Positions 11,988 through 33,849 of a stretch of 64,000 nucleotides of DNA are shown here, one piece after another. Source of the stretch: Hallerella succinigenes. Its GTDB lineage: Bacteria > Fibrobacterota > Fibrobacteria > Fibrobacterales > Fibrobacteraceae. The DNA is taken from the NCBI RefSeq assembly GCF_002797675.1, contig NZ_PGEX01000001.1, positions 186,001 to 250,000 on the forward strand, in the 5' to 3' direction. The translations under genes and the position numbers were made by a program. The notes under the pieces were generated by a model. It made no database searches and was not told where the DNA came from. It worked only from the letters and a program-made list of their open reading frames with translations. Within the stretch, counting starts at the first letter, position 1. Each line of letters opens with the position of its first letter.

Positions 11988-12767
11988 ATGTCCGCACTTG
12001 ACGTCAAACATCTCCGTGCCGGTTACGGTCAAAAGATTATCCTAGAGGATATCTCTTTTACCGTGCAGCCTCGTGAGATCCGAATGATTCTCGGTGCTTC
12101 GGGATGCGGCAAGTCCACTCTTCTGAACAATATTCTAAAGCTCGAGCATGCGATTTCGGGAACGCTTTCCTTCTTTGGCGAAGAAATCCAGACCAAGGAG
12201 CCGATTCCCGACAGACTGCGCCGTCGCATGGGCGTCCTTTTCCAAGGTGGCGCATTGCTCACGAACCTGACCGTCGCCGAAAACGTCGCCCTTCCGCTGC
12301 GCCGCAGCTATCCGAAGCTCGCTCAGACGACTCTGAACGAAATCGTCGCCGACCGTTTAGAAAAGGTTCACCTGCTGAACGCCTTTTACAAGTTCCCCTC
12401 GGAACTTTCGGGCGGTATGCGCAAGCGTGCGGCTCTTGCCCGCGCCATCGCCTTTGAACCGGAGCTTCTCTTTTGCGACGAACCTTCCGCAGGTCTTGAC
12501 CCGGTCACGTCCCGTTCGCTCGACGAACTGCTGCTAGAACTCCGCGATACGCTCGGCGTTTCCGTCATCATCGTATCGCATGAACTGGAAAGTATCAAGA
12601 CGATTACGGACAAGTTCATCTACCTGCAGAACGGAAACATTTTGATGGATGGAACCTTGGATGAAGGTCTCCACTCCGACATTCCAGTCATTCACAAGTT
12701 CTTTGCCCGCGAGCACGACAATCCTGTAGTGAACAAACGATTCATCCATTTTGAGTTTGAGAATTAA
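11988..12767 (+). CDS. mlaF: MlaF-type lipid ABC transporter ATPase
   Basis: The 259-aa ABC ATPase shows Walker A GASGCGKST (about residue 36), the Q-loop region LFQGGAL, signature LSGGMRKRAALARA, Walker B LLFCDEPSAGLDP and switch His in VSHE. LFQGGALLTNLTV and the SGGMRKR variant are typical of MlaF/Mkl ATPases. It powers the MlaE permease from the cytoplasmic face. AAGG lies just before ATG 11988, and MlaD follows 9 bp downstream, so the three genes form one transcriptional unit. Confidence 0.93.
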   Translation: MSALDVKHLRAGYGQKIILEDISFTVQPREIRMILGASGCGKSTLLNNILKLEHAISGTLSFFGEEIQTKEPIPDRLRRRMGVLFQGGALLTNLTVAENVALPLRRSYPKLAQTTLNEIVADRLEKVHLLNAFYKFPSELSGGMRKRAALARAIAFEPELLFCDEPSAGLDPVTSRSLDELLLELRDTLGVSVIIVSHELESIKTITDKFIYLQNGNILMDGTLDEGLHSDIPVIHKFFAREHDNPVVNKRFIHFEFEN

Positions 12768-14859: not shown

Positions 14860-14891
14860 AAAAAGCGTTGTTCCAAGACAGCGCTTTTTTT
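14860..14891 (+). terminator. Intrinsic terminator
   Basis: AAAAAGCG plus TGT pairs with ACA plus CGCTTTTT around a short loop, ending in seven T residues. It separates the lipoprotein gene from tpiA. Confidence 0.85.
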
Positions 14892-14943
14892 CTACATTTG
14901 ACTTCGAATTTCAAAACATAACCCTATTGAAGGAGTTAACATA

Positions 14944-15705
14944 ATGCGTCAGTATATTATTGCTGGTAACTGGAAGATGAACAAGACCGTTAGCGAAAGC
15001 GTTCAGCTCGCTAAGGATATCGTGGAAGCCGTCAAGGACGTGAAGAAGACTGAAGTCGTCATTGCTCCGACCTACCTCGCCGCTGCAAAAGTTGCAGATG
15101 TCGTCAAGGGCACCAACGTGAAGCTCGCTATCCAGGACATCCACTGGAAGGACCAGGGCGCATACACCGGTAAGGTTTCCATCGACATGGTCAAGGAAAT
15201 CGGAGCAGAATATGTGATCATCGGTCACTCCGAACAGCGTCAGTACTTCCATGAAACGGAAGAAACCGTGAACCTCAAGGTCAAGAAGACCCTCGAAGCG
15301 GGCCTCAAGCCGATTATCTGCATTGGCGAAACTCTCGAGCAGCGCAACGGCGGCATCTTGAAGGAAATCCTCGGTCTGCAGATCAAGGGCGCATTCAAGG
15401 ACGTTTCCGCTGAAGACGCTGCAAAGTGCGTTCTCGCATACGAACCGGTTTGGGCTATCGGCACTGGCGTGACCGCTACCGACGAACAGGCTCAGGACAC
15501 GCAGGCTTACGCACGTTCCGTCGTGAAGGAAATCTACGGCGAAGCTGTTGCTGAAGGCATGCGCATTCAGTACGGTGGCTCCATGAAGGGTGCAAACGCT
15601 CCGGGCCTCCTCGCTCAGAAGGACATCGACGGCGGTCTCATTGGCGGTGCTGGCCTCAAGGCTGACACTTTCAAGGCTATCATCGACGCAGCAGAAGCTA
15701 AGTAA
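14944..15705 (+). CDS. tpiA: Triosephosphate isomerase
   Basis: The 253-aa protein carries all catalytic signatures: GNWKMN (Lys13), IIGHSEQRQ (His about 97) and AYEPVWAIGTG (catalytic Glu), with the phosphate-binding GGSMK and GLIGGAGL near the end. It interconverts dihydroxyacetone phosphate and glyceraldehyde 3-phosphate in glycolysis. GGAG lies eight bases before ATG 14944. Codon use is strongly biased (AAG, GAA, GTC, CTC), as expected for a highly expressed gene. secG follows after 24 bp, a pairing seen in many bacteria. Confidence 0.98.
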   Translation: MRQYIIAGNWKMNKTVSESVQLAKDIVEAVKDVKKTEVVIAPTYLAAAKVADVVKGTNVKLAIQDIHWKDQGAYTGKVSIDMVKEIGAEYVIIGHSEQRQYFHETEETVNLKVKKTLEAGLKPIICIGETLEQRNGGILKEILGLQIKGAFKDVSAEDAAKCVLAYEPVWAIGTGVTATDEQAQDTQAYARSVVKEIYGEAVAEGMRIQYGGSMKGANAPGLLAQKDIDGGLIGGAGLKADTFKAIIDAAEAK

Positions 15706-19532: not shown

Positions 19533-21077
19533 TCATTTTTCAAACAGTTGATTTAAAAGGGATGTGCTTCGCACATACATTTCACTCGTGACCTTTTCGA
19601 TTTTTTCACTGAGAAGTCCATGCAAGATCATGACTGGAATTGCAATAATCAAACCTGTTTCCGTCGTGACGAGCGCTTCCGAAATACCTCCGGCGAGAAC
19701 CCGCGCGTCATTTGTTCCGACTTCCGTAATCACGTTAAAAAGCGTAATGATACCAGTCACCGTTCCCAAAAGTCCGAGCAAAGGCGCAATGGTCCCCATA
19801 GCCGCAAGCAGTCCCATGCGACGGTCCAGTTTTGGCTGTTCCCGAAGCAAAGCTTCCTGCAAAGCCTTTTCGGCAGCCTCGCGATTTTCTCGTGCCTTAT
19901 TTACGACAGCGAAGAGGACCATCGACAAGCTCGTATTTTCTTTCAGGCAAAGTTCCGCCGCTTCTTCAAATTGCGAATTTTCAAGATAAACGATAAACCG
20001 ATTCATCATCTGCTTGCGAATACGCCCGCGCAGAGTCAGAACGATAAAGCGTTCCAAGCTCAAAAGGAGCGCAAAAATGGCCACCAACATCAGCGGGTAC
20101 ATCACGATGCCGCCTTTCTTAAAAAAGGCTTTGGCTTGTTCGACAAGCGAAAGTTCCTGAGTATCGGTAATCGAATTTTTGACCGCCTTATTCTGCAACA
20201 CATCGATGGGAACCGCGACTTCGACAGAAGAATTCCCCGCTTCCGAAACCGCCTTCTGAATCTGGGAAGCCATTTCCTGAGGAAGGTTCGAATTCCATTC
20301 AAAGACTTTTCCCTGCAACGCTCCTGAACGAATCAGCGCCTGGACATTTTGATTATCCAAGGCGACTTCGCCTAAAAAGACCGTGCCGAGTCTCAAGCGG
20401 TTCACTTTTACATCGGGACGAGAACCGATCTGCGAAATGGTATTTTCAAACGACTGGGAATAAGTCATCTCATGACGTAAAAGCTGATCGCCTAAAAAGA
20501 TCCGGGCTGCAGAAAGCGCATTCGGATTTTTGCCTTCTACAGCATTTTCGGCTTCTTTCAAACGGAGAAGGCGATCGTTCATGCCAAGCGGGTAATCTCC
20601 AGTGACGTCACCCAGCGTCTTATCGATGGAAAGCTTTATCTGCATCCGAAGTGCGTCATAGGCATTCTCGTCAGAAAGCGCCTTTTCTTCCGCATCGGAC
20701 GTGAGTTCTTTACTCGCGAGAACTTCTTCATTGACACGACCGAGATCTGTCGAAAGCTTGGAATAACGTCCGTCGAGTTCCCGCGTTGCCACTTGATGTT
20801 CTTCGGAAAGTTCCGATTCCGCATAACGCTTTCTCCAATGTTCCGCTTCGAGCTTTTCGAGCGAATCCGCTTTTTGCAAACGGATACGGGTAAGCGCATC
20901 GACTTCACGCTGTAAATTTTTCAGTTCTTCGCGCTTTAAGGAATCCTGGATGCGCGCCTGTTCTTCTAGATTCTTTTTCTTGTCCGAAGACCACGGCCAC
21001 GCTAAGGCGTTCGTTGAAAGGAGGAGCAACGCAAGAAGGATTACGTGGCAATCCGTATGACTCGTAGAAAACAACAT
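19533..21077 (-). CDS. TtpC-like large MotA/TolQ/ExbB protein with periplasmic coiled coil
   Basis: The 514-aa protein has a signal peptide (LLALLLLSTNALA), a periplasmic coiled-coil region of about 270 residues (KNLEEQARIQDSLKREEL onwards), then a three-helix ExbB domain (about residues 335-500) with GTIAPLLGLLGTVTGIITLF and GGISEALVTTETGLIIAIPV. This architecture is that of TtpC, the extra component of some gammaproteobacterial TonB systems. ATG 21077 follows the DUF3450 stop by one base and has GGAGGAA upstream within that gene, so the two are translationally coupled. Confidence 0.88.
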   Translation of the reverse strand: MLFSTSHTDCHVILLALLLLSTNALAWPWSSDKKKNLEEQARIQDSLKREELKNLQREVDALTRIRLQKADSLEKLEAEHWRKRYAESELSEEHQVATRELDGRYSKLSTDLGRVNEEVLASKELTSDAEEKALSDENAYDALRMQIKLSIDKTLGDVTGDYPLGMNDRLLRLKEAENAVEGKNPNALSAARIFLGDQLLRHEMTYSQSFENTISQIGSRPDVKVNRLRLGTVFLGEVALDNQNVQALIRSGALQGKVFEWNSNLPQEMASQIQKAVSEAGNSSVEVAVPIDVLQNKAVKNSITDTQELSLVEQAKAFFKKGGIVMYPLMLVAIFALLLSLERFIVLTLRGRIRKQMMNRFIVYLENSQFEEAAELCLKENTSLSMVLFAVVNKARENREAAEKALQEALLREQPKLDRRMGLLAAMGTIAPLLGLLGTVTGIITLFNVITEVGTNDARVLAGGISEALVTTETGLIIAIPVMILHGLLSEKIEKVTSEMYVRSTSLLNQLFEK

Positions 21078-21078
21078 C

Positions 21079-21924
21079 TTAGTTCCTCCCCACAATCGAA
21101 AGGCTGACCGGAAGCGTCACCATCTGAGGAGGCTTCTTTGCCTGTTTCACATCCAAAGCGAACTTGACCGCACTACGTTCCTGCAAATTCAAGTTCTCAT
21201 TCCATTCATACGAAATGTTTCCGTTTTCCATTTTTCGAACAAGCGCCCCGTAGACGGTTCCATTGTCATCGCCGTAAACCATCCACTGGTTTCCAATGCG
21301 CAAAATCTGAGCATTGATCAGTTCCCCATTCTTTCTCGTTAGCGGAGAATGGATGATCGCAACTTCATCGCCAAATTTGATTTCTTCCGCAATCAAAGCC
21401 TTTAAGCGAGAAAAGCCTTCTTCCGCAGATGCGTTTCCGCTTTCCAGATCCCGAGAAAGAGCCTTGGCCCGGTCGAGGCGGGCTTCACGTTCCCAAGGAA
21501 TCGTCTGTTCGATTTGAGCTTCTAGCTGTTTACTGATGGCGACGAGCGCAAGCGAAAGCGCTTTTCGTTTTGCCTTGACGTTTTCGCTACGGTTCTTGGC
21601 CCGCGCCTGCTTGGAACGCTCCTCCTGCAATTGAGAAGCCACGTTCTTGATTTTGGAATTCAGCGAATCGATTTCCGCTTTACGGCGTTCCGAATCTGCC
21701 AAGAAACGTTCCTGCAAAGTCTTAAATCGTTTGTCGTCGGCTTTGAGCATGGAATCTGTCGCAGAAATCTGGGCATTTAATTTTTGGATTTCACCTTGGA
21801 GAGTTTCTTTCTGCAACTGCAAATCGCGAATGTCGGAATCGACATCGGCAAATCCAGCCACAGCGAATATTAAAGCTCCCAAGGCCAAGCTCCTAAAATG
21901 CGGCATTTTACTTTTCCTGTTCAT
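21079..21924 (-). CDS. DUF3450 periplasmic coiled-coil protein of TonB operon
   Basis: The roughly 281-aa protein has a signal peptide (LALGALIFAVAGFA) followed by about 110 residues of heptad-rich coiled coil (LQGEIQKLNAQISATDSMLK) and a C-terminal domain (GDEVAIIHSPLTRKNGELI, IGNQWMVYGDDNGTVYGAL). This matches DUF3450, which precedes TtpC/ExbB genes in TonB operons. Three consecutive ATGs (21930, 21927, 21924) are possible; 21924 gives the best spacing to AAGGGA. The start overlaps or abuts the stop of the lipoprotein gene, again implying coupled translation. Confidence 0.82.
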   Translation of the reverse strand: MNRKSKMPHFRSLALGALIFAVAGFADVDSDIRDLQLQKETLQGEIQKLNAQISATDSMLKADDKRFKTLQERFLADSERRKAEIDSLNSKIKNVASQLQEERSKQARAKNRSENVKAKRKALSLALVAISKQLEAQIEQTIPWEREARLDRAKALSRDLESGNASAEEGFSRLKALIAEEIKFGDEVAIIHSPLTRKNGELINAQILRIGNQWMVYGDDNGTVYGALVRKMENGNISYEWNENLNLQERSAVKFALDVKQAKKPPQMVTLPVSLSIVGRN

Positions 21925-21926
21925 CA

Positions 21927-23537
21927 TCATTCCCTTTTGCACTGCGGATCATTTTCGTTTTCTTTGCACCAAAGATCGACAACTCTTTGAAGAACGCTGG
22001 AATTCAGCTGTTTGCTATAGAATTCACTGACAAGCGCTGTTCCACATTGCGGATAAGCCGAAAGATCCCAATCGCGATCCGAGCACCACTTCCAAATGTA
22101 ATCCTTGCATGAATTGCTGTCGAGTGCAACCTGACATTCTTCATAGATTTGTCCACAATCTGCAATCGATGTACTTTTGAAATTGCTAGAAACACAGTAT
22201 CGCTTTAGGCCATCCGCATAAGCCTCCTGCTTGGCCGAAACTTTCGAAAGCGTATCCGGCAAATATACCGACCACGAAGAGCTATCGTGCAACATCGCAA
22301 GTTTTACAGCCACAGGATAACACGTCGGGATCGGTTTCACGACCGTCGAAGAATCCGAGCAATAAGTTTCCTGGAAAAGTCGGCAGTACTTGGTATTCCA
22401 AGGATCCTCATCCCCATCGGCATCCTTGTGATTATCGCAACCATAAACGCGTGCATAGCTGTAAGTAATGTAATCGTCCGAGTGAATATTCATCAAAACG
22501 GAATCCACGAGCATCCCCGCAAAAACACCGTTTCCATTTTCGATGTTCGTTCGCGATTTCACACGCGGATCTTCAAAGCTTTCGAGCAGGTAGTTTTGAT
22601 AATCGGCATACGCTTGATCGACAGCATAAATTTTGATTGTGGACTTTCCAATCGGCAGTTGCATTCCCGTTATGAACATCGTATCGAGATTGTAGAAGTC
22701 ACCGATTTTTAAGCGAGACTCAAAGCCGAACAAGCGGGTCTTTTCCGTCGCATCGAGCATCGTAAAGCCATAGTAGCCAGAAGAATCTTCGTCGAGGAAG
22801 GATTCGAGCATATGGAACATCGTTGTATTCATGGATTCGCCGTTCGAATCGCTGTCCGCATTGTATGCAAGCGTCAAGAGCATGCCTTGAACGGTCGTAT
22901 CGTAATCCATGCCGATGTTGTAGGTGTAAGCATCATAAGGATATTCTTGGTAATCGAAGTCCAAGTATTCATGTGTATTGAGAATCGGTTTCTGGTCGCT
23001 GACGACTTTTTTGCCCGGCGGCGTGATGCTCTTTGCCGAGAGCTTTGTCGGGATTTTCGCCACGCCAGAATATTGCGATTTCACCTTTTCCCCGGCACTG
23101 TCCCACTTGAACGCCGCGTTCATCGTGTAGGATTCCCCGACAACTCCCAAAGCTTCGGCATTTGTCGTAAAGCAGTTCGGCTTATTCGAAATGCTAGAAA
23201 GTTCTACAAGCGTATCCCCATTTGAGAATTTTCCAGAAACCGTCACAGCGGCGCTGTCGTAAAAGGCAAAATTTTCCGAAGCGGATTCATCGAGGTTATA
23301 GAGTTTTGAAAAACAGATATGAGGTTTTTGACCGGCGACCACATAGCCGTGCGTATAAATGCCCTTGTAGGCAACAGAATCTTCCGGGTAAAAAGACCAG
23401 GGGCCGTCGAAATCGCTACAGGACGAGAAAAGGAACGCGCAGAAGAAAATCGCGAGGACGCGGAAAGAGATTGCTTCGCTGCGCTCGCAATGACACGGGA
23501 GACGTTCGACACGACACGGTTTAGAAATAATACTCAT
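21927..23537 (-). CDS. Receptor-linked lipoprotein (DUF4249-like) with repeat-derived N-terminal extension
   Basis: The 536-aa protein has a lipoprotein signal RVLAIFFCAFLFSSC (Cys40) preceded by an unusual 25-residue extension containing CHCERSEAIS, the translation of a dispersed palindromic repeat (23468-23496). ATG 23537 overlaps the receptor stop by 17 bases. The mature protein resembles the DUF4249 lipoproteins that pair with TonB receptors in Bacteroidetes (HGYVVAGQKPHICFSKLYNL, FAFYDSAAVTVSGKFS), but I am not certain of the family. The C-terminal 150 residues hold many Cys (CVSSNFKSTSIADCGQIYEEC), suggesting disulfides. It probably sits on the outer membrane and helps capture the receptor's unknown ligand. 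Confidence 0.72.
   Translation of the reverse strand: MSIISKPCRVERLPCHCERSEAISFRVLAIFFCAFLFSSCSDFDGPWSFYPEDSVAYKGIYTHGYVVAGQKPHICFSKLYNLDESASENFAFYDSAAVTVSGKFSNGDTLVELSSISNKPNCFTTNAEALGVVGESYTMNAAFKWDSAGEKVKSQYSGVAKIPTKLSAKSITPPGKKVVSDQKPILNTHEYLDFDYQEYPYDAYTYNIGMDYDTTVQGMLLTLAYNADSDSNGESMNTTMFHMLESFLDEDSSGYYGFTMLDATEKTRLFGFESRLKIGDFYNLDTMFITGMQLPIGKSTIKIYAVDQAYADYQNYLLESFEDPRVKSRTNIENGNGVFAGMLVDSVLMNIHSDDYITYSYARVYGCDNHKDADGDEDPWNTKYCRLFQETYCSDSSTVVKPIPTCYPVAVKLAMLHDSSSWSVYLPDTLSKVSAKQEAYADGLKRYCVSSNFKSTSIADCGQIYEECQVALDSNSCKDYIWKWCSDRDWDLSAYPQCGTALVSEFYSKQLNSSVLQRVVDLWCKENENDPQCKRE
23468..23496 (-). repeat. Dispersed palindromic repeat inside a lipoprotein gene
   Basis: On the minus strand this reads TGTCATTGCGAGCGCAGCGA followed by AGCAATCTC, a very common bacterial dispersed repeat with an internal inverted repeat. 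It lies in frame in the N-terminal coding region of the lipoprotein gene. Related ATTGCGAG segments occur at 28936-28943 and 55316-55323. Confidence 0.75.
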
Positions 23538-26160
23538 AGTTCAGCATCACCGGCAAATAAGGGAACTGATAAATATTCGTTTTCTTTGGAGGGTTCTCGC
23601 TCGTATCGTAGAAACTATAGAACAGATTTTCATGATTTGTCAAATTGATAATTGTCCAACTAAAATTCCATTTATTTTCTTTTCCCCAATCCACCACTTT
23701 CACGTCGATGCGGAAGTAATCCGATTGGCGGCCTTCGTTTCGGCCTCCCGGGACCACCTGAATCGCATCCGAATAGACTTGCGGATCGACACGATCTTCA
23801 TAAAAATAACCCACGTAATTCGTCATCGGCATTCCCGCCGAATACTTCAAAATAATGGACGAGCGGAAATAAGTCTTTGCATTCGGGGCAAACATTCCAT
23901 TTTTACCGCGCCAGTTCAAGCCCGCATCCATTTTAAGCGCATAAGGTTGATGCCAATTCGGAAAATAAGCATCCGTGCCGTCATCCGAGCGGACAACGCT
24001 CACGCTCTGACTCCAGTTAATGCCTCCAAACCACGAGCCTTCATCTTTACGCAGCGAAAGCTCGTAACCCAAAGAATAACCCCGAGCCGTTCCAAAATAA
24101 TCCGCCATCACAAAATCATCGCTCGTCGTTTCATCCGTCGAATCTTGCGCCATGGTGAATGTCTTTAGATCTTTTTGCGTTTTGTAATAGGCTCCGGCCG
24201 TAAAATTGTAACCATTGAAAATGAAGTCCCGATGTGAATATTCCAAAGCAAAAAGGTAAGAACTAGCAGGCTTCATATGGCGACCATCCGAAGTCGTTAC
24301 GATCGGATAGTAAAATTCGTTCAAGGATTCCTGATCGCTGAACATGATTGAATTCATATACTGCAAATAGCGTCCGCCGTAAAGTTCAAAGCGTTGACGG
24401 TCGGTCATCTGCCAGACCAAGGAAGCTCGCGGTTCCACGCCAAAATGTTCGGCAAGAGTCTGGTAATTCAAACGCACGCCGTAAGTCAGGGTCCAATCCG
24501 CCGCTAATCTCCAGGCATCTTGCAAATATCCCACATGATGGAACGGATACTGATGATCGACAAGCTTTACGCTCATCGCATGTTCATAAAATTCAGACTG
24601 GTCATATTCCAGATCATAACCAAAAGTCAACGTGTGATCGTCAAACCCTTTATAATTGATCCATTGCTTTCCCGCATAAGTAAAGAGGTCCATGCCGATA
24701 TCGATCATGTCCGAAACTTGCATTGTCTGGTAGAATCGGCTAAAGGCAAGAGTCGCGTTGTATTCCCAGTTTCCATCGCGATGGAAGTAATTGATCGGAA
24801 TGGCGACGTTTCCCCAATCCATGTAAAGCGGATCGAAGGCCAGCTTATCCCAGCCCACATAAAAGCTGAATTTCAATCGATTATCCGGATCAAAATCATA
24901 CAGGAAAGTTCCTTGAATATCCGTAAATTCATAATCCACATCTAGATCAACCGCATCTAGCCAGCGCAATAAAGCAAGCATGTATCCGATATAGGTTTGA
25001 CGTGCGGCCACGACCCAACGGGCATTTCCCATGTGGCCTTCCGTATGGAGCTGGGCTGCAAAGGTACTGATTTTCACGCTCGTTTTCGAAAGCCATTCTT
25101 CCACAGAATCCGAGCCCCCGGCACGGCCATCCATTTTGAGGACGGAACTCAAGCGGTTGCCGTACTGCGCCGGGAAACCGCTCTTGTAGAATTGGACTTC
25201 GTCAATCGTTTCTACCAGGAACGTGCTAAAAAGTCCAAAGAAATGCGTCGGAGAATAAACGACCGAGTTGTCGTAAAGAAAAAGGTTCTGGTCCGCAGCA
25301 CCACCGCGCACATAAATCTTTGTGCTAAAGTCCGAACTCGCGACAACACCCGGGAGGGCCTGAATGCTCCGGATCACGTCCGCTTCGGCAAGGCCCGGCA
25401 TGCGCTTGATGCTCTTTGCCGTGACGACAGATTCGCCAGCCTTGCGCTTGGGCCGGCGCCGAAGCTGCACCACGACCTTCTTCATTTCTGTCACTCGGGA
25501 ATTCGAGGCCGCCAAGAGGTCGTCGACGTTTACGTCGGATTTTTTCTCCTCGGAGAGGATAACTTGACTACTGCAACAAGTTGCAGAGTCTCGTAAATCC
25601 TCGGAGAGGATAACTTGACTACTGCAACAAGTTGCAGAGTCTCGTAAATCCTCGGAGAGGATAACTTGACTACTGCAACAAGTTGCAGAGTCTCGTAAAT
25701 CCTCGGAGAGGATAACTTGACTACTGCAACAAGTTGCAGAGTCTCGTAAATCCTCGGAAAGGATAACTTGACTACTGCAACAAGTTGCAGAGTCTCGTAA
25801 AGTTTCACTCGCAATAACAGCACTGTCGCCAAGCGCTATGCTAAAGACACTGTCTTGACCGTGATACACTAGCTCATAGCATTTTTCTTTTTCTGCCCCT
25901 GACGTATCCGAATTCGTAACGCAGACATTCCAGAGCGTATCTTCGGGAAGTTTTACAAAAAAGTTTTCCCCGACGACTGTCTGGATCGCTTCTCCGGTCT
26001 CGAGGATTTCCACATTGAGCTTTTCGCCTGGCGCAAAAGAAGAATCTTGCACCATGCCGTAAAAAAGAATCGTTCTTTCAAGAGCTTCCGTACGAGCGTT
26101 CTCTTGAGCGGCGACCATACCCGCGAAAAAAAGAAGGATGTAAAGAACAATTCTATTCAC
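23521..26160 (-). CDS. TonB-dependent outer-membrane receptor with 17-residue tandem repeats
   Basis: The 879-aa protein has a signal peptide (IVLYILLFFAGMVAAQ), an N-terminal beta domain (about 20-115), five perfect or near-perfect 17-residue repeats DLRDSATCCSSQVILSE (about 120-204), then a plug domain (about 225-340: VVTAKSIKRMPGLAEADVI, TKIYVRGGAADQNLFLYDN, YGNRLSSVLKMDGR) and a beta barrel ending in an aromatic residue (LMLNYEYYF written from its last strand). It is the first gene of the operon that also encodes its lipoprotein partner and a complete DUF3450-TtpC-ExbBD-TonB machine. The substrate is unknown; no siderophore, cobalamin or glycan genes are adjacent. Confidence 0.92.
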   Translation of the reverse strand: MNRIVLYILLFFAGMVAAQENARTEALERTILFYGMVQDSSFAPGEKLNVEILETGEAIQTVVGENFFVKLPEDTLWNVCVTNSDTSGAEKEKCYELVYHGQDSVFSIALGDSAVIASETLRDSATCCSSQVILSEDLRDSATCCSSQVILSEDLRDSATCCSSQVILSEDLRDSATCCSSQVILSEDLRDSATCCSSQVILSEEKKSDVNVDDLLAASNSRVTEMKKVVVQLRRRPKRKAGESVVTAKSIKRMPGLAEADVIRSIQALPGVVASSDFSTKIYVRGGAADQNLFLYDNSVVYSPTHFFGLFSTFLVETIDEVQFYKSGFPAQYGNRLSSVLKMDGRAGGSDSVEEWLSKTSVKISTFAAQLHTEGHMGNARWVVAARQTYIGYMLALLRWLDAVDLDVDYEFTDIQGTFLYDFDPDNRLKFSFYVGWDKLAFDPLYMDWGNVAIPINYFHRDGNWEYNATLAFSRFYQTMQVSDMIDIGMDLFTYAGKQWINYKGFDDHTLTFGYDLEYDQSEFYEHAMSVKLVDHQYPFHHVGYLQDAWRLAADWTLTYGVRLNYQTLAEHFGVEPRASLVWQMTDRQRFELYGGRYLQYMNSIMFSDQESLNEFYYPIVTTSDGRHMKPASSYLFALEYSHRDFIFNGYNFTAGAYYKTQKDLKTFTMAQDSTDETTSDDFVMADYFGTARGYSLGYELSLRKDEGSWFGGINWSQSVSVVRSDDGTDAYFPNWHQPYALKMDAGLNWRGKNGMFAPNAKTYFRSSIILKYSAGMPMTNYVGYFYEDRVDPQVYSDAIQVVPGGRNEGRQSDYFRIDVKVVDWGKENKWNFSWTIINLTNHENLFYSFYDTSENPPKKTNIYQFPYLPVMLNYEYYF
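25547..25801. repeat. Five tandem 51-bp repeats in the receptor gene
   Basis: Five head-to-tail units of exactly 51 bp start at 25547, 25598, 25649, 25700 and 25751; the fifth differs by one base (GGAAAGG for GGAGAGG). Each encodes 17 residues in frame, including a Cys-Cys pair, so unit gain or loss leaves the frame intact. Each unit contains the near-palindrome CTGCAAC-AA-GTTGCAG. The near-identity indicates recent expansion. Confidence 0.98.
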
Positions 26161-32420: not shown

Positions 32421-33849
32421 TTAGTGTCCGGAGAAAATTTTCAGAACGTCTAGACCCCAGAATTTACGCGGTCTAGACTTTGACTTTGCCGTTGCAAGCC
32501 CCCTCCCTAGAAATTTGGACGCTACGATGGGCAAGGTGGATGCTGCAGCATGCGTTCCCAGTCCCTTGTGGGATGTTCAAAAAAGTCAAACATGTCAATG
32601 TAGAGCATCAGGATTATTCGCATCATTGTCGCAAGTCCGGAAAAGCTCCAGCGCCGTTCAAGGCTGCGCTGCACAAGGGTCAGGAGAAGGTTCGCGATGA
32701 GGGTTACCCAGATCTGGGTCTTGATGGCGTTCTCGCTCACCCCAGAGAAGTAGCGCAGGGGAAAGTTCTGCTTAAGTTGCTTGAAAAGCGATTCGATCTG
32801 CCAGCGCCTTTGATAGATGGCGATAACTTCATCCACGCCGAGATCGTGGCTGTTTGTCAGCAGCTGGACCTCCTGCTCCTTGCTCCCTCTCCTCGAAGTC
32901 TTGGTCTCGGTGTACGAGATAATCCGGGCCCTATGCGTTGTAGCGCCCTTGTGGAACACGACGTCCCTGACCGACCTGTTCCGGTACCTGCCATCGTCGA
33001 GCAGGACGCTCTCCGAGACCGTCTCGTAGGTCAGGTTTCTTTTCATCTTGGTCACGTAGGTAACGCCATGCTGCGTCAGATCCTCCAGCTTTTCATAGTC
33101 GATGTAGGCGCGGTCCATGGCGAGCACGTCGCCGTCGTCAAAGTCGCATGGCTTGAGCATGAAGCTGTCGTGGGTGGCCGCGGAAGTAAACTTGATGTCG
33201 CCGGGAACCCCCTCGTTCGCGCTGATGACTGTATGGACCTTTATGCCGCCTTTCTTCTTTCCAATTTTCGGGTCCCTGCCGACACCCCTGAAAACCAGGT
33301 TGGAGAACAGCGTCACCGTTGTGGAATCGATGATTTTGAGCCGTCCCAGCCATCCGGGCAGCCCGTTGAGGCGGCTGTCCGGTAAAAGTCGGCTTCTGTG
33401 CGCTCTTAGCAGGCTGAAATAGGTGTCCCCGAAGATGGACTCGCTTCTCTTCGCGTTGGCGTCCCCCAGCGTACTCCGCTTGGGCACGCAGCTCATCTGC
33501 AGGTGCGGCATTCTGCTCACGAATGTCAGCGCAGACGCCTCTATCTCCCGCAGGGAATCGAACCGCATCACGACCGCATAGAGCATCGAAAGCAGGTGAG
33601 TCCATGCGTCAAAGGACTTTCTGTAGCGTTCTCCGCCGGATTCCGTGCTGATTCTGAGGATTTCGTCCCTGTCGAGATACTTGCAGAGTTGCGCGAAGAC
33701 CGGCTGTCCGGTAAAAAATGTACTTTTGGCCATAGCGTTTTGTTTCCCTTTGTTTTGTGGTAATTACAAGGTAAAAACAAAACGGGCAGGTTCTTCGTCT
33801 GAGGAGCCTGCCATTTTTATTTTTGGCTATATTTTTTACCGGACACTAA
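32421..33849 (-). mobile_element. IS4-family insertion sequence
   Basis: The element is 1429 bp with terminal inverted repeats TTAGTGTCCGG (32421-32431) and CCGGACACTAA (33839-33849). Flanks TAAAAAAATTT (left) and TAAAAAAAATT (right) may be an 11-bp target duplication with one difference, but poly-A weakens this. It encodes one transposase. A palindrome with GTCTAGAC arms (32451-32458 and 32472-32479) lies near the left end, downstream of the transposase, and may be its terminator. The insertion lies 20 bp after the MBOAT gene stop. Confidence 0.9.
32522..33733 (-). CDS. IS4-family transposase (DUF4372 type)
   Basis: The 403-aa protein starts KSTFFTGQPVFAQLCKYLDR, the N-terminal domain (DUF4372) typical of this IS4 subgroup. 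The DDE residues are in KIIDSTTVTLF, VLAMDRAYIDYEKL and the IS4 signature YQRRWQIESLFKQLKQNF (Y-2-R-3-E-6-K). It is intact, so the element may be active. Its base composition is GC-richer than the surrounding accessory genes. Confidence 0.95.
   Translation of the reverse strand: MAKSTFFTGQPVFAQLCKYLDRDEILRISTESGGERYRKSFDAWTHLLSMLYAVVMRFDSLREIEASALTFVSRMPHLQMSCVPKRSTLGDANAKRSESIFGDTYFSLLRAHRSRLLPDSRLNGLPGWLGRLKIIDSTTVTLFSNLVFRGVGRDPKIGKKKGGIKVHTVISANEGVPGDIKFTSAATHDSFMLKPCDFDDGDVLAMDRAYIDYEKLEDLTQHGVTYVTKMKRNLTYETVSESVLLDDGRYRNRSVRDVVFHKGATTHRARIISYTETKTSRRGSKEQEVQLLTNSHDLGVDEVIAIYQRRWQIESLFKQLKQNFPLRYFSGVSENAIKTQIWVTLIANLLLTLVQRSLERRWSFSGLATMMRIILMLYIDMFDFFEHPTRDWERMLQHPPCPS

Follow-up and report, generated by a model that had tools for sequence, protein, structure and literature searches.

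A five-unit tandem array in a TonB-dependent-receptor-like gene of Hallerella succinigenes and its probable origin from a dispersed two-hairpin element of 51 bp

The window analysed here is a 64,000-nucleotide stretch of the genome of Hallerella succinigenes (positions 186,001 to 250,000 of contig NZ_PGEX01000001.1), which is assembled as a single 3.127-Mb contig (G000). A single array of period 51 was identified in the window by TRF (5.0 copies, 99% matches, 0 indels, score 503), the second and last row of the TRF output having a score of just 53. This array is in frame on the minus strand of an ORF that begins with GTG and resembles a TonB-dependent receptor (Table 1), and it encodes LRDSATCCSSQVILSE five times, with ten Cys in total. 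Read along the gene strand, unit 1 differs by one base from units 2-5, GTTATTGCGAGTGAAAC stands immediately 5' of the array and GAAAAAATCC immediately 3', and the array together with these two halves of a REP-like shell occupies 282 bp, or 94 codons (window 25537-25818). Pairing within the ATTGC shell of the window extends over only about 5 bp. An initial annotation of this DNA, made from the letters alone, had described five 51-bp repeats that encode 17-residue units with Cys between the N-terminal domain and the plug, next to a ATTGCGAG-like sequence. All of these features were recovered, the last as the two flanking shell halves.

Table 1. Coordinates of features at the array locus (positions in the window).
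Feature	Position	Strand	Basis or remark
TonB-dependent-receptor-like ORF, 879 aa, host of the array	23521..26160	-	ORF list; Plug PF07715
N-terminal all-beta domain, residues ~30-111, not STN	25828..26073	-	AlphaFold domain model; no STN match in 26 orthologs
Linker, 112 aa, from N-terminal domain to plug region	25492..25827	-	Longest among linkers compared
REP-like shell, 5' half, GTTATTGCGAGTGAAAC on gene strand	25802..25818	-	Less worn copy in L007
Five-unit M array	25547..25801	-	TRF; unit sequences; model R1 matches all five
M unit 1, one base different; units 2-5 onward to 25547	25751-25801	-	Unit sequences
REP-like shell, 3' half, GAAAAAATCC on gene strand	25537..25546	-	Sequence
Plug domain, residues 244-336	25153..25431	-	PF07715
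Lipoprotein-like ORF, 536 aa, adjoining, no family match	21927..23537	-	ORF list
Two ORFs: MotA/TolQ/ExbB family and DUF3450	19533..21942	-	ORF list, family matches

The closest relatives of the protein were in records of Fibrobacter MAGs. Its match to the Plug family was above the cut-off (E 1.8e-7), and all 26 aligned members also had a match to this family, 7 of them with a further match to OMP_b-brl_4 (E <= 0.1); the window protein itself had no match to a barrel family. NCBIfam gave no match for the receptor or for the adjoining lipoprotein, and none of the solved structures compared with the receptor profile matched at E <= 0.01. Many strands appeared in an AlphaFold model of the whole receptor, but this model was poor (mean pLDDT 56, plug badly modelled), and although pLDDT was below 50 for linker residues 115-226, the linker is proposed to be disordered mainly from its sequence, given the weakness of the model. 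Folded alone, the N-terminal domain was modelled as seven beta strands with zero helix (pLDDT 87). The earlier label of this domain as a signal domain is not supported, given this all-beta model and the STN profile, which matched none of the 26 aligned orthologs at E <= 0.1. The best Foldseek row for the domain was the NTE domain of SusC BT3090 (E 8.8e-3). Every VIA row had Z below 8 (best 7.4), and this predicted similarity may reflect a common beta-sandwich arrangement only.

Downstream of the receptor and on the same strand were the lipoprotein-like ORF, a DUF3450 protein and a MotA/ExbB-type protein, neighbours that fit an energised outer-membrane system. In the 5' part of the lipoprotein ORF (window 23440-23537), an uninterrupted repeat of the GTCATTGCGAGCGAAGCGAAGCAATC type was noted, which translates as CHCERSEAIS; the true start of this ORF may lie further down.

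Array DNA compared with its own genome matched five further places. A model (R1) built from seven unit sequences matched 18 places in the same genome at E <= 0.01, 5 of them the array and 13 elsewhere, so that the search for the 51-bp unit outside the gene, as proposed in the initial annotation, was positive. Its suggestion that the array was seeded by a dispersed repeat is supported by these unit-like copies and by the ATTGCGAG...AATCC flanks, which form a split REP-like shell. R1 matches to the unit, hereafter M, were found in 84 of 111 Fibrobacteraceae genomes (E <= 0.01) and, at the scale of the phylum, in 83 of 167 genomes (E <= 1e-4) belonging to 3 of 40 genera.

M folds as two hairpins, in DNA as well as in RNA. 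Fold z-scores were -4.0 to -4.8 for DNA and -2.8 to -4.3 for RNA (units, and shell plus unit). Among 34 distinct M sequences, both sides had changed in 13 of 18 pairs and 95.4% of cells were paired compared with 30-59% in slid controls, figures that are biased towards the structure, as the sequences had been aligned with the model; seven of the units tested had also served to build it. No Rfam family matched at M, and a search of L001-L006 at E up to 1 returned just tRNA and sub-threshold YrlA, both elsewhere. Nor was M met with in open-access listings on Fibrobacter palindromic repeats, GTCATTGCGAG, RAYT, nested MITE/REP or REP/TonB/linker combinations. M is apparently a structured dispersed element that has so far gone undescribed.

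The flanks of M were several differing palindromes and not one sequence. The shells observed were GTCATCCCCGC^GAAGGCGGGGATC, GTCATCCTCGC^GNAGGCGAGGATC, GTCATGCCCGC^GAAGGCGGGCATC, GTCATTGCGAGCGAAGC^GAAGCAATC, CAGCACTTAGCACTTT^AGTGCTTAGTGCG and others (^ marks M). Over 84 context clusters, the bases at the junction were G(74)C(62)^G(68)A(60)A(68)G(61), giving the consensus GC^GAAG; the very stable mini-hairpin d(GCGAAGC) is a conceivable target of M. A perfect flank stem of at least 6 bp was present in 31 of the 84 clusters as opposed to 6.2% when flanks were re-paired 1000 times. The tag GTCA[TC] occurred upstream of M in 59/84 clusters and downstream only in 0/84; therefore, the orientation of M is fixed. 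In 56 clusters, [CT]GTCA[TC] was present in the 30 bases before M, identifying a CGTC-type tag for those shells, and 35 had the simple form in which a stem of 8-9 bp beginning with AT could be sought, 24 of these 35 pairing at all or all-but-one positions. The 84 clusters do not represent independent events because shells recur and sites were drawn from best-scoring matches; L122 was excluded from site counts since unit scores and flanks identified it as the same place as L007.

An exact difference of one M was noted at the 3' end of a TrpB-like gene. Among 30 orthologous loci, M was present in L225, L229 and L230 and the first M hairpin only in L228, L235 and L242, the remaining loci lacking M by eye. 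Compared with L227, L229 contained exactly 51 bp extra between flanks that were identical at 147/150 positions on the left and 25/26 on the right, with zero target duplication and no surrounding REP-like palindrome; this was the only pair measured base by base, and it is compatible with either gain or precise loss of M. The effect of M at this gene end is an earlier stop. M does not conform to the description of a MITE, as there was no target duplication in the exact pair and its ends (TATACG, GGGGA) do not form inverted repeats. Comparison of L022 with L058 as an empty and a filled site is suggestive, the M of L022 having a worn 3' end. L019, where M lies within a GACGAGA simple repeat, was not counted with L040 as such a pair because the simple repeat muddles the comparison. 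Around query L182, many orthologs matched up to and after shell plus M and not across, indicating that both were gained or lost together.

Copies of M were found on either strand relative to genes, and a crude open-frame test was passed by 8 of the 84 clusters. Five of these were taken as truly intragenic: the window, L020, L121 (lipoprotein), L128 and L158, the remaining three being upstream or doubtful. A Ser-rich lipoprotein ORF of G005 contained shell plus M intact and in frame (78 bp), its unit matching the window unit at every base, and M was in frame, with the opposite strand read, in a TrpC-TrpF ORF (L128) and a NUDIX ORF (L158). In-frame insertion in several unrelated genes, as looked for in an RPE-like element, was therefore observed. 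In the same G005 genome (L081 1500-1880, contig 124), an unrelated lipoprotein-like ORF was seen to have a Ser-rich linker made up of many ATTGCGAG-type repeat pieces and one M.

The near identity of the units and their length had been taken in the initial annotation as signs of ongoing copy-number change. In agreement with this, an ortholog 95% identical to the window protein (L007) contained 3 units between the shell halves GTCATTGCGAGCGAAAC and GAAACAATCC, which are less worn than those of the window, and the ortholog L060 contained none; however, L007 lies on a MAG contig, so that its three-unit count could be collapsed, and the L008 contig ends inside the array. Alleles of the array locus were few (5, 3, 0 and one contig end), and all except that of the window were from MAGs. 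Copy-number change at the receptor locus is suggested by comparison of these sequences. Both L007 and L058, the latter only 58% identical to the window protein, are in MAG RUG13674, so that the L007 contig is perhaps misplaced and one of the two contigs may belong to another species.

Products of unequal exchange or slippage between units were seen among M arrays at many dispersed places in a genome of the same genus (G001). Of 22 such loci, 21 could be typed (L221 runs into N), and these comprised 13 a-b arrays, 3 a-(b/a)-b, 3 a/b and 2 single a. A single unequal exchange between two a-b arrays yields the a-(b/a)-b triple and the a/b single as its two reciprocal products, and slippage would give rise to both as well. 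Among 122 sites with distinct contexts, 102 carried a single unit, 15 a double and 4 a triple, the remaining one being the five-unit array of the window.

The linker that contains the array was compared with linkers from 60 ortholog loci, of which 6 had no usable linker (n = 54). Sequence recurring within 480 kb of DNA that flanks the loci of this set was found in 20 of the 54 ortholog linkers compared with 4 of 540 control segments, which were matched in length and taken from the same genes, while the other 34 linkers had zero repeat match in that search. The database for this search left out L008, L048, L050, L051, L056, L059 and L066, which held unmasked ortholog pieces. The 20 positive linkers include L007 and, counted separately, the near-identical linkers of L035 and L038, and they miss L020, the M of which was seen by the model only. 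The linker repeats varied by species, with in-frame readings that include VILSEAKDP, CHPREGGDL and LRQAQGPDS, and the linker of the L020 ortholog carried an M of its own, independent of the array and in another open frame. Ortholog linkers ranged from 46 to 106 aa as opposed to 112 aa in the window, a spread that speaks for tolerance over tuning, and Cys was present in just 2 of the 54. The best reading of these results is that the linker is a loose stretch tolerant of insertions. A single protein linker has been refilled repeatedly from differing dispersed repeats within one bacterial family.

Candidate enzymes for movement of M were sought among family genomes. PF01797 (Y1_Tnp) was matched in 44 of the 111 genomes, including 14 of the 27 that are M-negative. 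A Y1/RAYT enzyme as the necessary mover was rejected since PF01797 was absent from 54 of the 84 M-positive genomes, a count in which MAG gaps can hide genes; two near-complete M-positive genomes (G030 and G032) were among those without it. IS110 was likewise rejected, PF01548 occurring in 14/111 family genomes and 6/84 M-positive ones. ATTGCGA was not present in the 1.5-kb flanks of the five own-genome matches.

We consider it probable that the array arose by tandem amplification of M, a dispersed and apparently mobile 51-bp element held in a split REP-like shell, in frame within a flexible linker of a TonB-receptor-like protein. By this account, M is a two-hairpin element of the Fibrobacteraceae, as computed from its distribution and fold. 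It lies in one orientation, mostly at GC^GAAG, at the stem/loop junctions of several different palindromes and occasionally in genes that have no such repeat, and target duplication is lacking, as computed from the locations of M and the one exact empty/filled pair. In the linker M is held by a 27-bp shell. Both lengths, 27 and 51, divide by three, and stops are lacking in two of the three forward frames of M, so that the gene stays open. The 51-bp core would then have been multiplied through unequal exchange or slippage between units, as computed from the reciprocal array products of the congeneric genome, in a linker that presumably tolerates the result. The encoded peptide, including its ten Cys, is most likely a passenger. 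We infer the order of events at the array locus, its neutrality and an enzyme that moves M. An odd receptor repeat would thereby be explained as the trace of a family-wide and apparently undescribed dispersed element.

Selection on the array itself, by which copy number would tune the periplasmic reach of the N-terminal domain as at a contingency locus, is distinctly unlikely. Such a functional minisatellite could account for a unit that is divisible by three and nearly invariant, for the different count in L007 and for a window linker longer than any compared, but not for units outside the receptor gene, arrays of 2-3 units at other, dispersed places, or ortholog linkers of such varied length that hold other repeats or none and seldom contain Cys. 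It is unlikely, too, that M is immobile, being a long loop that belongs to a single REP lineage and was dispersed together with its shell, the stems having diverged later. Loops do vary within the REP families for which this is described (PMC3733652), and shell and M were jointly present or absent at the place around L182, yet M is held by shells as unlike as GTCATCCCCGC/GCGGGGATC and CAGCACTTAGCACTTT/AGTGCTTAGTGCG, lies inside the simple repeat of L019 and accounts for the exact 51-bp difference at the TrpB-like gene end, where there is no palindromic shell.

That the hairpins act in receptor mRNA, on its stability or translation, and that the array multiplies this effect would agree with the compensatory changes and with the RNA fold z-scores; this reading is very doubtful given that the DNA fold is equally significant, that M occurs on either strand, including the one absent from mRNA, and that it is without an Rfam family. 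Miscounting of the five copies during assembly, in either direction, is highly improbable: tandem repeats are error-prone and L008 ends inside the array, but the genome is a single contig, unit 1 differs by one base and a separate assembly (L007) is also tandem, with 3 units. Amplification of a dispersed M thus remains the preferred explanation, and once M is recognised the array is ordinary, M and its habits being the interesting part.

Similarities to known systems were noted for M and for its shells. CGTC-tagged REPs, as described in PMC3733652, resemble several M shells in having a CGTC/TGTC tag, an AT-beginning stem and a short loop, whereas M has no tag, is 51 bp long with two hairpins and is common to several unrelated shells. 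That source already reports nesting of REPs in palindromes and clusters of REPs within ORFs, where they code for 43-82 aa, and its text does not contain the word Fibrobacter. Rickettsia palindromic elements are also dispersed palindromic DNA in frame within coding genes, but PMC10969869 gives them a length of about 150 bp, as against 51 bp for M, which is also nested in the loops of REPs and occurs in tandem. IS1397, IS621 and ISPpu9 likewise insert specifically into REP palindromes; according to PMC1525189, they carry a transposase gene, which M lacks. Like M, the hairpin DNA of REPIN/RAYT systems, the subject of PMC3116915 and PMC2817692, is small and spreads without a gene of its own. Unlike that system, a majority of M-positive genomes (54/84) had no Y1_Tnp match. 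Cyanobacteria contain very small, apparently mobile repeats that are nested in other repeats, and M resembles these in size, apparent mobility and nesting.

A broader reading, which we put forward tentatively and hold to be less probable than its converse, is that M might be a free-standing transposable hairpin of 51 nt and one of the smallest known mobile elements. It would recognise the folded REP tip (GC^GAAG) and insert one way without target duplication by means of an enzyme not yet recognised. M could then also serve as a linker generator, its 51 bp and the 27 bp of the shell being multiples of three, and could supply exported and even metabolic proteins with new peptide that is subsequently lengthened by unequal exchange. 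The exact empty/filled site, the target motif and the recombinant arrays provide handles on the movement of very small palindromic DNA for which no RAYT was found.

Two further observations concern DNA near the array or near other copies of M. A 403-aa transposase-like ORF in the window (32522-33733) had the same translation as L115 2869-4080 and is, by reason of this identity, probably a recent insertion sequence copy. In L114 (G000 686000-704500), repeated short ORFs at 12163-12531 and 14879-15322 adjoin M copies, one with an in-frame repeat-derived stretch, and these ORFs resemble what we take to be C-terminal pieces of carbamoyl-phosphate synthase.
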